Assembly (NCBI RefSeq): GCF_001613345.1
Contig: NZ_BDCE01000073.1
Coordinates: 1 to 64,000, forward strand
Reading direction: 5' to 3'
Origin: Nocardia uniformis NBRC 13702
GTDB lineage: Bacteria; Actinomycetota; Actinomycetes; Mycobacteriales; Mycobacteriaceae
DNA: 64,000 bases
Shown: piece after piece, positions 17,238 to 22,233 of the stretch
How the letters are laid out: every line of letters starts with the position of its first letter
How positions within the stretch are numbered: position 1 is the first letter of the stretch
Translations under genes and position numbers: made by a program
Notes under the pieces: model-generated
The model's input: only the letters and a program-made list of their open reading frames with translations
Databases searched by the model: none
What the model was told of the DNA's origin: nothing

Positions 17238-17544
17238 GCCACCTGCGATCAGCATCCCGAAGCCCAGCATGACGCACTCACCCCAGCCGGGTGCGAACAG
17301 ATCTTCATCGACAAGACCTCCGGCAAGCTCGGGGCGCATCGGTGTCGATTTCGGGTCGATCGGCCTGTGTCACGTCGCTGCCGCCGCTGCTGGAATTGGC
17401 CGATGATCGCGACACACTGCTTGCGCAGACCGAGGAGCAGATTGCGCTGTTCGTGAGTGGTGATCGGGTGGGGGCGTGGCGGAAGTTCATGGTGGATGCG
17501 CGGATTCACATGCCGGAGGAGGTTTTCCTGCAGTACTTCGGAGC
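17238..17544 (+). pseudogene. mosaic of resolvase, IMPase and hydrolase fragments
   Basis: Three gene pieces are joined. Bases 17238-17330 read as a serine-resolvase stretch (HDALTPAGCEQIFIDKTSGK) of the Tn3 TnpR type. Bases about 17323-17377 nearly repeat 21004-21057 of the inositol-monophosphatase-like gene. Bases about 17388-17544 nearly repeat 21790-21946 of the hydrolase gene, with only a few differences. The joint to the next piece, a sliding-clamp gene, is at about 17545. The two repeated pieces keep the order they have at 20.4-22.2 kb but without the 730 bases between, as expected from duplication followed by deletion. Confidence 0.75.
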
Positions 17545-18336
17545 GTTGACGACTATCCGGAACTTCCCGAATCGCCCGCGACAGTCGGTGGCGTCGACCG
17601 CGGGAAACTATGCGACGCGGTGGCCCGGGTAGCGGTGGCCGCCGGGCGTGACGACACGCTGCCGATGCTGACCGGGGTGAGTATCGAGTTCCATCCCGGA
17701 TTCCTACGGTTGGTGAGTACGGATCGGTTTCGCATCGCGATCCACGAGCTGGAGTGGGATCCGGTGGGGATCTCGGGACCTGCCAGCGTGCTGGTGCCCG
17801 CCCGCGCGCTGGCCGAAACCAGCAAGGCACTGTCGGGACCGCGGATCGAAATCTCCGGTGGCCCAGGGCAGACCGTTCTGGGGCTGACGACCGGCGACCA
17901 GCGCCACACGATGCGTACGCTCGATATGCCTTATGCGCCCTATCAGCGCTATCTCGAAAGCACCCACACCGCAACCGCTTTGATCAATACGGCTGCCTTG
18001 GTCGATGCGATCAAACGGGTGTCGCTGCTCTCGCCCCGAAGCGCGCAAGTGCAGTTGACCTTCGCCACAGCCTCGGCCCGCTTGTCCGCCGGCGGTGGCA
18101 ACGAAGGCAGCGCGAAGGAGATTATCGGTTGCGAGTTCGATGGGGAACCTTTGACCATTGCCTTCAACCCCCGCTACCTGCTCGAAGGACTGGCCGCCGC
18201 ACGTGCCGAGGTTGTAGAGATCGCTATGAACGGACCGACCGGAGCGGCAACAGTTCGTGCCGCTGATCGCGAATCCGACGGTGAGCGCCGCGATGGCCTG
18301 ATCTACGTACTGATGCCAGTGCGCCTACCTCACTGA
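17476..18336 (+). pseudogene. truncated DNA polymerase III beta clamp (dnaN) paralog
   Basis: From about 17548 the frame reads as domains II and III of a sliding clamp: DDYPELPESP, VAVAAGRDDTLPMLTGV, STDRFRIAIHELEW, NPRYLLEGL and the C-terminal end YVLMPVRLP. Domain I (the first 120 residues) is missing and the DNA before 17545 belongs to a hydrolase fragment. An ATG at 17476 in the fragment would give 286 residues. Without domain I it cannot form the normal dimeric ring, so I call it a pseudogene, although the remaining frame has no stops and might still be translated. The real dnaN should lie elsewhere. Confidence 0.7.
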
Positions 18337-18450: not shown

Positions 18451-18759
18451 TCAGTTCACATGGACGGCATGACGGGTGATCGCAACGTCAATCGGCTGAT
18501 GGGAAGCGTCCGTCGACACACACGGCTCGGCTCCGTCTAGGATTGAGTCGAGGATATCGGCGCTGTCGAGCGTGGCTCGGAATGATTGTTGGCGGGCGCC
18601 TGCGATTACGGCGTAGAGCACGGTGGCGTAGAGGTGGGAGCGGGGCACGGTTAGCCGCCATCCGCAGTGTTCGTGCTGCTGCAGACGGTTTTCGACGATA
18701 TCGATGACGTCCTGAATGACGTGGATCTCGATGTCGGCAATCTCGTCGCGGTCGAGCAT
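18451..18759 (-). CDS. hypothetical protein, 102 residues
   Basis: It starts with ATG at 18759, two bases after the stop of the 65-residue ORF, so the two are translationally coupled. The sequence begins MLDRDEIADIEIHVIQDVIDIV, a probable helix, followed by SHLYATVLYAVIAGARQQS. No family is recognised. The pair diverges from the HTH/PRTase gene at 19125 with about 165 bases between. Confidence 0.55.
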   Translation of the reverse strand: MLDRDEIADIEIHVIQDVIDIVENRLQQHEHCGWRLTVPRSHLYATVLYAVIAGARQQSFRATLDSADILDSILDGAEPCVSTDASHQPIDVAITRHAVHVN

Positions 18760-18761
18760 AT

Positions 18762-18959
18762 TCAGAAACCGAACTTCGGACGCTCGGCCGGTTCGATGCG
18801 GCCTTCGCGGATGAGCAAGGTCCTGGCGCACAGTTTGATCGGGCATGCGGTGATCGGACATTCGATGTGTTCTTGCATTACCGCGCACGCGGATTCGAGC
18901 GTGAGTCCGTCCGGTGGGACGCTGTGGTCTGTCGGCTGAAGACTGTAATCGGGAACCAT
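18762..18959 (-). CDS. small Cys-containing hypothetical protein
   Basis: A 65-residue ORF with GGAGGT eight bases before its ATG, a very good ribosome-binding site. It contains three or four cysteines in the spacing C-x8-C-x4-C-x4-C (ESACAVMQEHIECPITACPI), which could bind metal or form disulfides. No family is recognised. It is the first gene of a two-gene unit. Confidence 0.6.
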   Translation of the reverse strand: MVPDYSLQPTDHSVPPDGLTLESACAVMQEHIECPITACPIKLCARTLLIREGRIEPAERPKFGF

Positions 18960-19124
18960 GGTGCAGGACCTCCAGTGCGTTGGATCCCCTGGTTGACCGG
19001 GGAGAAATGTTGTGCCGCTTCCGAATAACCCTCGCACGCGAAGCCCGCCGTGACACCTGCCCACCGGTTCGCTATTCACCGGATTCTTGGGCGCGCTGAC
19101 CTGCGAAGTTGTTACGCTATCCGC

Positions 19125-20360
19125 ATGTTGCCCATCGGAATGGGTGAGCCGGATAAGCCGTCGACACTCGGATCTCGAAGGGGCGCGCGTCTGCGAACCT
19201 CTTCGAGATCGCCGAATGCGAACGCTCGGGCGAGCCAACCGTTGAGCCCCCAAGCGCGTGGCCGAGAGATGGCCGCCATTGGCAAGAGGCTGTGGACCGA
19301 GCTGGGGTCGGTGACCCGCACGGCGACGGAATTGCTGGACCGGTATCCGGATGTGCCGAGTTTGCAGGCGTATCGGTATGCCGCCGGTCTGTCCCAGGAT
19401 CAGGCCGCTGCCCGCTACAACGAGGTCACGGGCAATCAGACCAGCCTGGGCGGCACTTCCATCAACGCCTGGGAGACCTGGGCACGGGCACGTGGCCAGG
19501 GGTCGCCACCGTCATTGTCGAGCGTCTTGATTTTGTGCACCGCCTATGGCCGTGGCCCGCTAGGGATGGCAGACGAGCACATTTCGCCGACCGAGTTGAT
19601 TGCCGAAGCCTACGAGCGACTGCCGATCGAGGATCAGCTTGCGCTCAAGCGGTTCACCGCAGATCGCGGTTTCCGACCGGCAGCCGCAGCCGATCACTCG
19701 CACTCAACCGCGTCACCTGCGCAAACGCATGGCTCCGTATCGCAAGGAGCAGTAGGACAGATCGGCGGTGAGTTCACCCTCTCGGTTCCCACTTTCGAGT
19801 ACGGGAACTCGGACATATGCGTGTTCTCTCTCCCCAATCCGCGACCCGGCCAATTGCTCGACTTGACCTGGGAGACTTTCGGATTCGGCATAGATCGACT
19901 CTCGCAGCAGATCAAGAGCGTCGGGAGACGCCTGGACGTGGACATATGCTTCGGCGTGAACGAGGCCGGTCTGGTGATGGCAACGTTCCTTGCCTCGTCT
20001 CGGTTCTCCCGCTGCACGATCGGCTACCTGCGCTGCAACAAGATCCGCGACGGCATCGAGTTGGACGTCGCATCGTACTTCCCTGAAGCCAGAGCCACAC
20101 CGACCATCGTCATCTGCGACTTCGAGGTCAAACATGCCGATGTCATCGGCCAACTGGCCGGACAGGTCCGCGCGAAGTACCCGAAAGCAGAGCTGTATTT
20201 TGCTGTGTTCGGCGCCATGACCAAAGGCCGCGACCTGGAAGTTGCCAGCTTCGACGATCTGACCGGTGCCAAGATCATGCGCGGCGCGGACTTCGAAGCC
20301 ATCTTCATCGCCGCCACCATGAGCCCACCCGGCATCGAACCTCCTCTGGAGTTGCGATGA
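19125..20360 (+). CDS. HTH protein with phosphoribosyltransferase-like domain
   Basis: A 411-residue protein. Near residue 75 to 140 is an XRE-like helix-turn-helix (QAYRYAAGLSQDQAAARYNE, then SINAWETWARARG). After a linker, the last 170 residues look like a type I phosphoribosyltransferase fold: DICFGVNEAGLVMATFLA as the first strand and helix, and IVICDFEVKHADVIGQL at the position of the PRPP loop. The usual two acidic residues followed by a TGxT loop are not seen, so catalysis is doubtful and it may be a ligand sensor. A TACGCT box six bases before ATG 19125 suggests a leaderless mRNA; ATG 19269 is an alternative. An IMPase-like gene follows at 23 bases. Confidence 0.65.
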   Translation: MLPIGMGEPDKPSTLGSRRGARLRTSSRSPNANARASQPLSPQARGREMAAIGKRLWTELGSVTRTATELLDRYPDVPSLQAYRYAAGLSQDQAAARYNEVTGNQTSLGGTSINAWETWARARGQGSPPSLSSVLILCTAYGRGPLGMADEHISPTELIAEAYERLPIEDQLALKRFTADRGFRPAAAADHSHSTASPAQTHGSVSQGAVGQIGGEFTLSVPTFEYGNSDICVFSLPNPRPGQLLDLTWETFGFGIDRLSQQIKSVGRRLDVDICFGVNEAGLVMATFLASSRFSRCTIGYLRCNKIRDGIELDVASYFPEARATPTIVICDFEVKHADVIGQLAGQVRAKYPKAELYFAVFGAMTKGRDLEVASFDDLTGAKIMRGADFEAIFIAATMSPPGIEPPLELR

Positions 20361-20382
20361 GCTCCCAGAAAGGTGATTGCCG

Positions 20383-21309
20383 ATGCCTAGCTTGAACATT
20401 CCCGAACTAGCGCAACGTATCGCAGGGCTGGTGCAGCAGCTGATGGGAGAGATCAGGCCGCAGCTGATGGAAGCCGCCCTCACCGGACACCGCGCGGAGA
20501 ACGATAATCCGCGGCACGTCGACAACTTTCTCTCCGATCACGATCTGTGGATGCATCATCGCTACAAGGAAGTTCTCGCCGAACACATCCCGTCATTCGT
20601 CTATGCCTCGGAGGAAGCTGACCCCGAGGTCATCGGCGTGGAACGCGACCCCAGCCTGTGTGTGCTGGTCGATCCTCTCGATACCAGTGAGCTGGCCGTG
20701 CGGGGCCTGTGCGGGTACACGCATGTCTTGGTGTACTCGCGTACGCTGGCCAGGCCCGTGGTAGCCGTGGTCGGCGATATTTTCCACCACGTCCAGCTGT
20801 ACGTGGCGGCCCGCGACGATAGTGGCCGGGATCGAGCCTTCGTGATCACCGCGGAGGGCGACGAATTTTCTCTCGAAAGTCCTTCAAAAGCAGCACTTTC
20901 CGAATCGCTGGTCACGAACTACCTGATGCGCCCGCAACAACGGTTCCGGCCGCTTGCTGGGCAAGAGCAGCTTCTGAACGCACTCGGCGCACCATCTCCG
21001 GATGGGAAAGCTCGGGGGCGCATCGGTGTCGATTTCGGGTCGATCGGCCTGTGCCACATAGCTGCTGGATTCACCGATGCCATGGTGGAATTCGCCAAAG
21101 GATTCGCCATCTGGGATCTGTCCCCAGGCCACTACATCCTGCACGCAGCCGGCGGCACCGTCACTGATCTCCACGGGAAGCCCATCACCCTGGATTACGG
21201 CCTGAACTCACTGTCCGCGATCAAACAGGCGATGGACCGGCGTCAGAAATTCATCGCCGCCGGAAACCCCCGCCTCGCACACGAAATCCGCACGATGCTC
21301 CAGCCGTGA
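20383..21309 (+). CDS. inositol monophosphatase family protein
   Basis: A 308-residue enzyme of the IMPase/FBPase fold. Metal-site motifs are visible: SEEAD (first Glu pair), LVDPLDTSE (in place of DPxDGT) and FAIWDLSPGHYILHAAGG (in place of WDxxAG). Conserved Asp residues remain, so Mg-dependent phosphatase activity is likely, but the substitutions (DTSE, SPG) suggest an unusual substrate. ATG at 20383 has AAAGGTG upstream. It is directly downstream of the HTH/PRTase gene and probably shares its mRNA. A fragment of a copy lies in the mosaic at 17.3 kb. Confidence 0.8.
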   Translation: MPSLNIPELAQRIAGLVQQLMGEIRPQLMEAALTGHRAENDNPRHVDNFLSDHDLWMHHRYKEVLAEHIPSFVYASEEADPEVIGVERDPSLCVLVDPLDTSELAVRGLCGYTHVLVYSRTLARPVVAVVGDIFHHVQLYVAARDDSGRDRAFVITAEGDEFSLESPSKAALSESLVTNYLMRPQQRFRPLAGQEQLLNALGAPSPDGKARGRIGVDFGSIGLCHIAAGFTDAMVEFAKGFAIWDLSPGHYILHAAGGTVTDLHGKPITLDYGLNSLSAIKQAMDRRQKFIAAGNPRLAHEIRTMLQP

Positions 21310-21420: not shown

Positions 21421-22233
21421 ATGACCTCGACCGCAGCAGTTACCACCGCAACCCTGACTGTGCCTGATGGCAGTTTGTATTACGAGGTGCGGGGGAGTGG
21501 GCCGCTCATGGTGTTGTTGGGTGCGCCCATGGGGGCTGAGGACTTTGTGGGGCTGGCGGGGGAGTACACGGTGCTGACCACTGATCCTCGGGGGCATCGG
21601 CGGAGTGTGTCGAACGATCCGGAGCAGGAGTCGACGCCGGAGTTGCGGGCTGATGACGCGGCTCGGTTGATTCGGGCGATCGATGCGGGGCCCGCTGTGG
21701 TTTTCGGGTCCAGTGGCGGGGCGGTGACCACGCTGGCGTTGTTGGAAAGCGCGCCGGAATTGGTGACTGCCGCTATCGCGCATGAGCCGCCGCTGGTGGA
21801 GTTGGTCGATGATCGCGACACACTGCATGCGCAGACCGAGGAACAGATTGCGCTGTTCGTGAGTGGCGATCGGGTGGGGGCGTGGCGGAAGTTCATGGCG
21901 GATGCGCAGATTCACATGCCGGAGGAGATTTTCCTGCAGTACTTCGGAGCCGAGCCGCCCGCCGAGCAGGCGGCGTCGGAGAACTTCTGGTTCCGTCATG
22001 AAATTCGAGGGACCACGCATTTCACCCCGAATATCGATGCCCTGCGCGGGGCCGGCGCGCACCTCATTATCGGGATCGGCGAACAGTCGACCGGCCAGAC
22101 CTGCGACCGCACCTCTCGCGCGCTCGGCGATGCTCTCGGGATCGCCCCGGCCCTGTTTCCCGGCGATCACACCGGCTTCGTTCCGGATCCGGTCGGCTTC
22201 GCCGCCCGCATGCGCGAACTGCTGAATTCCTGA
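21421..22233 (+). CDS. alpha/beta hydrolase
   Basis: A 270-residue single-domain hydrolase. The nucleophile elbow is GSSGGA, the oxyanion region LLGAPMGAEDF, and the catalytic His lies in PGDHTGF. ATG at 21421 lacks a good ribosome-binding site. A nearly identical 155-base piece occurs at 17388-17544. The substrate is unknown; it lacks any membrane anchor. Confidence 0.82.
   Translation: MTSTAAVTTATLTVPDGSLYYEVRGSGPLMVLLGAPMGAEDFVGLAGEYTVLTTDPRGHRRSVSNDPEQESTPELRADDAARLIRAIDAGPAVVFGSSGGAVTTLALLESAPELVTAAIAHEPPLVELVDDRDTLHAQTEEQIALFVSGDRVGAWRKFMADAQIHMPEEIFLQYFGAEPPAEQAASENFWFRHEIRGTTHFTPNIDALRGAGAHLIIGIGEQSTGQTCDRTSRALGDALGIAPALFPGDHTGFVPDPVGFAARMRELLNS

Follow-up and report, generated by a model that had tools for sequence, protein, structure and literature searches.

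The window analysed here is a stretch of 64,000 nucleotides from Nocardia uniformis NBRC 13702 (contig NZ_BDCE01000073.1, positions 1 to 64,000). On its plus strand it encodes a regulator, in which a helix-turn-helix (HTH) head precedes a degenerate phosphoribosyltransferase (PRTase) fold, and directly after it a phosphatase of the inositol monophosphatase (IMPase) family. That the two form a conserved two-gene unit is strongly supported by sequence comparison. The pair looks like an undescribed sense-and-dephosphorylate unit among soil actinobacteria. In the mechanism that we favour, and that we hold at about even chances, the regulator represses its own operon, responds to a small molecule that carries a phosphate, and in this way governs the enzyme that would dephosphorylate it. 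Searches of PubMed Central (PMC) papers brought up no description of the pair, a scope outside which most subscription-journal papers lie and in which the operator was not a search target.

Conservation and distribution of the pair

Scanning genome contigs with the window regulator returned 50 loci (L and G numbers below denote loci and genomes). They come from Nocardia, Lentzea, Amycolatopsis, Crossiella, Promicromonospora, Micromonosporaceae, Streptosporangiaceae, Actinomadura (Thermomonosporaceae) and two unassigned metagenome-assembled genomes. The phosphatase is also encoded in every one of the 50, where it begins less than 200 bases from the regulator end, and the pair spans six actinobacterial families. 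In the window the regulator stop codon occupies 20358–20360, the phosphatase ATG follows at 20383 after a gap of 22 bases, and the phosphatase stop codon is at 21307–21309. Regulator codons of the window and of four Nocardia relatives differ at 10–12% of second positions and at 46–49% of third positions; on codon evidence the regulator is under purifying selection. The window copy departs from otherwise invariant alignment columns nowhere in the regulator and once in the phosphatase.

Among 150 Nocardia genomes, 18 have the PRTase domain and 20 the phosphatase, and each of the 18 has both. The whole regulator profile matches one of 396 genomes of a phylum sample and the PRTase domain one of 394 class genomes, in both cases the genome of the window. 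The phosphatase profile matches one of 121 family genomes, again the window's own, and seven of 298 order genomes. Four of these seven look like loci already collected (L075, L080, L057 and L050) and one is the window's genome; the match in G1186 sits 412 bases from a contig start and that in G1024 is split in two frames. Neither of these two stretches yielded a regulator match. Phosphatases with new partners outside Nocardia were considered and rejected on inspection of the seven order matches. The two-gene unit is rare overall.

The 38-row regulator tree is for the most part coherent by family. Its exceptions are Promicromonospora and Lentzea, which fall among Nocardia with moderate support, and two Amycolatopsis, which join Actinoplanes with full support. 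The tree is compatible with a few transfers and is no proof of them. Carriage by plasmids or phages was rejected: the plasmid set has one record with both genes, a Nonomuraea replicon of 11.85 Mb that bears the label plasmid I, the phage set searched with the regulator gave no match, and viral contigs gave one locus, L103, which has transposition genes and looks the same as the Nocardia locus L073. In G121 the regulator and phosphatase frames are both open over the full length. Besides two full operons, G117 has a third phosphatase gene that is intact and adjoins what is left of a regulator. In Lentzea flava 37 residues of a second phosphatase copy survive upstream (L039 1529–1630), resembling the remnant in the window.

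The operator palindrome

The operator consensus is TTGCCCAT-N4-ATGGGTAA, with 16 specified bases, and a promoter site was counted when at least 13 of the 16 agreed. By this measure the palindrome lies upstream of the regulator in 45 of the 46 loci with the window's kind of head (type A), the window included; the site of L051 scores 13/16. In the 46th, L046, a site scoring 15/16 lies 1.84 kb upstream, past a transposase gene. This operator (L046 3158–3177), parted from its regulator by the transposase, belongs to one of two Promicromonospora umidemergens copies and leaves a natural operator-less copy. In 35 of the 45 loci the palindrome runs into a TAnnnT hexamer, by our own count, at the expected place of the −10 box. 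A conserved block about 20–100 bases upstream of the operator includes a further stretch like a TGGG half-site.

Whole genomes were searched with one mismatch allowed. All 17 sites, in 16 of the 18 carrier genomes, sit at this operon, and G117 with its two full operons has two of them. Eighteen other genomes gave one site, in G004 (L085 1501–1520; G004:C26:102831–102850), a genome with neither a regulator nor a phosphatase match in the genus scans; this palindrome could be a remnant or chance. A backwards control pattern gave no site in the 36 genomes. No site above 12/16 was found in the three loci with another head (type B), in the two loci with an XRE-DUF5753 regulator or in two remnant loci. 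Operator and type A head are thus found in the same loci, and no other sequence evidence speaks as well for binding of the palindrome by this head. The palindrome is, with strong support from these searches, operon-specific. Two ideas were rejected at one mismatch, namely that the full palindrome serves a shared regulon and that it governs the divergent genes.

The regulator

The AF2 model of the regulator has a mean pLDDT of 69.7. Residues 201–310 reach 74–95, residues 311–350 lie at 51–77, residues 352–363 fall below 50, and the tail is put below 40. Foldseek relates the C-terminal domain to PRTase structures with an E-value of 1.5e-6, and in the Foldseek/VIA comparison 139–151 residues match HGXPRT (Z 14.6, 139 residues, 2.5 Å) and PyrR (Z up to 14.5). 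The predicted model therefore supports a PRTase fold in this domain, and the degenerate PRTase proposed in the initial annotation is upheld by its match at Z 14.6. Sixteen members were scanned with Pfam PRTase (PF00156), and none matched at E-values up to 10. A comparison by hhalign with four PRTases from the same genome, each as a single sequence, is a weak test and gave no significant match; proof of PRTase descent at the sequence level was accordingly dropped, the single-sequence hhalign having given none.

Type I PRTases have an acidic phosphoribosyl pyrophosphate (PRPP) loop followed by TG, a DD..TG-type motif. The regulator lacks this acidic loop and TG, and its strand-loop reads IVICDFEVKHADV. 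In the model, FEVKHAD follows the strand IVICD at the place of the PRPP loop, an equivalence taken from the strand order of the model. Within the CDFEVKH motif, C, D, E, V and K are identical in all 38 type A rows, F in 37 and H in 36, and the motif is invariant in a 16-row alignment that includes three rows with a different HTH head. At the C-terminus, GIEPPLELR is invariant in 38/38 rows. The final 16 residues, AATMSPPGIEPPLELR, are 98.8% conserved in protein and their synonymous codons vary freely, which suggests that the tail is likely a docking peptide.

The DNA-binding head is more variable. The XRE-like HTH of the initial annotation stands as an HTH in the window, with a match to HTH_31 that is weak (E 0.0013) and under the Pfam curated cut-off. 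The type A head is 30–41% similar to the HTHs of long ORFs, and both such ORFs that were scanned carry NB-ARC. In L075, L077 and L080 the PRTase domain is 69–74% identical to that of the window and the head is unrelated (type B); their promoters have GTCTCG-type repeats in place of the palindrome. The type B regulators lie at L075 4698–5687, L077 4662–5627 and L080 4698–5687, with the head pattern QFYRWLSG...LPY.DHCRILE, and all three adjoin an FtsK-like gene and others that resemble genes of conjugative elements.

The phosphatase

The phosphatase matches Pfam Inositol_P (PF00459) with an E-value of 5.3e-19 and 69.2 bits against a cut-off of 27, which confirms the family first assigned to it. 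The predicted model has a pLDDT of 92. Its top structural matches are SuhB (Z 29.1) and then other IMPases, over the full length. Glu77, Glu78, Asp97, Asp100, Ser102 and Asp245 are invariant in 37 phosphatase rows, and we take E77/E78, D97, D100 and D245 to be the metal-binding and catalytic positions of the IMPase family. A complete IMPase catalytic set is strongly supported by the alignment. The best NCBIfam equivalog match reaches 40.5 bits against a cut-off of 264, and a substrate can therefore not be named from it.

In G010 and G011 the phosphatase is preceded by an XRE-DUF5753 regulator without the PRTase domain. DUF5753 is matched in the G011 and G010 regulators with E-values of 4.3e-38 and 3.2e-37; the window regulator gave no DUF5753 match in a Pfam scan at E up to 1. 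The stretches that hold the phosphatase with the XRE-DUF5753 regulator are L113 4123–5981 and L114 8594–11297, and in the latter, from G011, a DUF6879 gene stands ahead of the regulator. The G011 phosphatase, which is outside the 37-row alignment, has Cys at D97, the first aspartate of DPLD, and may for this reason be inactive. Across all these loci, sequence evidence strongly supports that the DNA-binding head or the whole regulator is exchangeable and that the phosphatase is the constant part.

Gene layout and the small divergent ORFs

The features of the locus are listed in Table 1. The longest ORF of the regulator runs from 19050 to 20360, and the conserved part begins at 19269. Most Nocardia relatives have an ATG or GTG about 26 codons ahead of the position that matches 19269. 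At that start position the window has CTG (19191), preceded by GAAGGGG. Alignment with the GTG and ATG starts of the relatives makes CTG 19191 the probable start of the window regulator, and the first GTG of the longest ORF is probably not the start. The coding constraint of the window copy is intact despite its aberrant promoter and start codon.

Table 1. Features of the regulator–phosphatase locus in window coordinates
Feature	Coordinates	Strand	Remarks
Second small ORF	18451–18759	−	Start 2 bases past the stop of the Cys-rich ORF
Cys-rich ORF	18762–18959	−	GGAGGT 8 bases ahead of its ATG
Upstream conserved block	19040–19110		CACACCTG ... CGGAT..TGGG ... TGACCTGCG; MAFFT consensus of 45 upstream regions
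Operator palindrome	19128–19147		Window reads TTGCCCAT-CGGA-ATGGGTGA
HTH + degenerate PRTase-fold regulator	19191–20360	+	Probable CTG start at 19191
HTH region, type A	19350–19560	+	Distant kin: HTHs preceding NB-ARC proteins; HTH_31 weak
PRTase-fold domain	19752–20360	+	CDFEVKH replaces the PRPP loop; C-terminal tail near-invariant
IMPase-family phosphatase	20383–21309	+	Motifs SEE, DPLDTSE and WDLSPG

The initial annotation had read a divergent module of four genes here, namely the regulator, the phosphatase and two small ORFs facing them. The first two are borne out as same-strand ORFs in that order, and the two coupled minus-strand ORFs also exist, the first with a strong GGAGGT ribosome-binding site. 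Co-occurrence in other actinobacteria holds for the two large genes, together in 50/50 loci, and fails for the small ones. Counterparts of the Cys-rich ORF are 40–43% matches in two of the 50 loci (L033 and L034) and also occur in the G121 locus; an 84-residue ORF in L117 resembles it by eye. A relative of the Cys-rich ORF has 3–14 matches per genome in six of six Nocardia genomes, three carriers and three non-carriers. It belongs to a multicopy Nocardia family of a small Cys protein with a pattern like A..AM..H..C....C. A counterpart of the second small ORF is absent from the fetched loci (wider collections were not searched for it); outside the window these gave one match of 15 residues, E 0.24, which is chance. 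Since the small ORFs do not co-occur with the regulator–phosphatase pair, and the divergent neighbours vary by locus, the four-gene module was rejected.

The partial duplication proposed for this region is real: 51 nt of the IMPase gene and 165 nt of a downstream hydrolase recur at 17331–17544. The remnants are 94–95% identical to 21015–21065 (51 nt) and 21786–21950 (165 nt). Within 17331–18336 they run into a dnaN-like ORF that matches model positions 111–367 only, that is, without the first clamp domain.

Proposed mechanism and alternative explanations

In the autorepressor mechanism, the HTH head of the regulator would bind the palindrome, a site well supported by comparison that overlaps the operon's own −10 region, and would repress the operon. 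The PRTase-fold domain has lost the PRPP loop and kept a near-invariant site, and it probably binds a phosphorylated small molecule; a sugar phosphate, a nucleotide or a phosphorylated antibiotic are candidates. Binding of this ligand would detach the regulator from the DNA and so allow synthesis of the IMPase-like enzyme, which would take off the phosphate and thereby restore repression. The earlier suggestion that the PRTase part senses something that the phosphatase makes or removes is compatible with our findings and is kept as a proposal. A bolder form of the mechanism, to which we give limited credence, is an exchangeable sense-and-dephosphorylate cassette: the PRTase domain with its CDFEVKH site and fixed tail would read a phosphorylated signal or antibiotic, the IMPase would be its dedicated eraser, and the heads would swap. 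Two genes without specific annotation now gain a defined operator, a candidate pocket and a partner, which makes a direct search for ligand and substrate feasible. If one and the same molecule is sensed and erased, identifying it would bring to light a phosphorylated signal or drug of actinobacteria that has so far gone unrecognised. One enzyme with three kinds of regulator is in any event a clean case for the study of regulator exchange.

Several observations weigh against the autorepressor mechanism. Among the 45 loci, the window alone lacks an ATG or GTG between the palindrome and the conserved region, and its −10-like hexamer, TGAGCC, is the sole one with G at the second position; on these grounds the window copy may be poorly expressed. 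G100 and G104, two of the 18 carriers, gave no operator site at one mismatch, and the G104 copy is decayed. The G1024 copy is broken, two transposition genes, one IstB-like, split the phosphatase of L073 after about codon 33, L081 and L082 hold fragments, and the regulator reading frame is broken in L076 and L078. The conserved block ahead of the palindrome could mean activation and not repression. The predicted structure behind the PRTase assignment has a mean confidence that is middling (69.7). The phosphatase stands without the PRTase domain in two of the 20 Nocardia genomes that have it (G010 and G011), so the domain is not strictly required beside it. Regulator and phosphatase may also serve unrelated molecules.

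The genes divergent from the pair bring in another explanation, that the pair is a regulator cassette beside variable small metabolite or peptide clusters, which it would help to control or supply, and the phosphatase a tailoring or resistance enzyme. These neighbours vary and include radical SAM, methyltransferase, DHQ-synthase-like, ROK, permease, NUDIX, transposase and FtsK-like genes. The CxxxCxxC motif occurs in ten of 415 neighbour genes (429 kb of flanks). Nine of the ten lie divergently upstream, and the tenth, in L033, has a UPF0004 domain and is of housekeeping type. Of the 86 upstream genes that were scanned, seven match Radical_SAM; a background of 142 matches in about 85.5 Mb of ten Nocardia carrier genomes would predict about 0.7 for 429 kb. 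DHQ-synthase-like and ROK kinase genes occur together in three loci and a lantibiotic dehydratase in one. However, four of the nine divergent CxxxCxxC genes are one Actinoplanes cluster, the L040 gene has the motif without a Pfam match, the L043 gene is cut and lay outside the Pfam scan, the background density was drawn from Nocardia only, and most loci have neighbours of other kinds. The palindrome does not control such genes, since none is found elsewhere in the carriers at one mismatch, and we consider a cluster cassette unlikely. The nine genes, more than the genome density suggests, are in L040, L043, L051, L052, L058, L060, L062, L065 and L071. In Actinoplanes the radical-SAM-like genes come with a conserved 54-residue peptide ending in DDNPYN or NDNPYN; no conserved precursor peptide common to 11 loci was seen by eye in the divergent gap.

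The pair could also be a toxin–antitoxin-like or anti-phage unit, autoregulated, patchy and sometimes mobile, whose phosphatase harms the cell or phage once released. The specificity of the operator for this operon in the carriers would fit, as would the patchy spread (18 of 150 Nocardia, one of 396 in the phylum sample), the decayed or interrupted copies, and the three loci beside an FtsK-like gene and genes read as conjugative-element genes. In two genomes the partner is an XRE-DUF5753 protein, of an HTH kind once proposed as antitoxins (PMC7159879). Yet it would be unusual for a toxin to have the fold of a metabolic phosphatase, and the third phosphatase of G117 is intact with only a regulator remnant, although control in trans by the full regulators that G117 has at other places could account for this. 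PADLOC gave no family for the four window proteins at E up to 1, and a known anti-phage system was rejected on this result. For the 86 upstream neighbours it gave pVip models (seven and five members), mad2 (two) and three singletons, of which pVip is read as generic radical SAM. We regard a toxin–antitoxin-like or anti-phage role as rather improbable. Less probable still is a protein partnership, in which the phosphatase, like Escherichia coli SuhB, would act chiefly by binding, with the near-invariant C-terminal tail of the regulator as its docking site. No structure matches the phosphatase better than SuhB, and the conserved tail is predicted at low confidence; a pure binding role, however, has no need of the catalytic positions, which are invariant in the 37 rows, and the phosphatase is retained in two genomes without any PRTase match.

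Comparison with known systems

The regulator shares the PRTase fold in a regulatory protein with the Gram-positive PurR and with PyrR, whose structures match it with Z up to 14.5. PurR joins a DNA-binding head to a PRTase domain. The window regulator differs from both in that its PRPP-loop strand reads IVICDFEVKHAD and not a DD..TG-type motif, that it has no Pfam PRTase match and an extra near-invariant C-terminal tail, and that its type of operator is found, at one-mismatch stringency, only at its own operon. The phosphatase shares Inositol_P, the metal and catalytic motifs and the full-length fold with the IMPase superfamily (SuhB, IMPase, CysQ and HisN). The canonical IMPase motif is DPxDGT; the window phosphatase has DPLDTSE, with TS where DPxD is followed by GT, and an N-terminal motif of its own, RHxDNFLSxxDLWMH. 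The third comparison is with Scr1/Scr2 (XRE-DUF5753/DUF397), also a two-gene regulator unit, whose XRE-DUF5753 kind replaces the regulator in G010 and G011. Scr1/Scr2 was tested as a toxin–antitoxin pair and is reported instead as a positive regulator of antibiotic production (PMC6262351). In contrast to it, the window regulator has a PRTase fold, shows no match to DUF5753 and is paired with an enzyme in place of DUF397.

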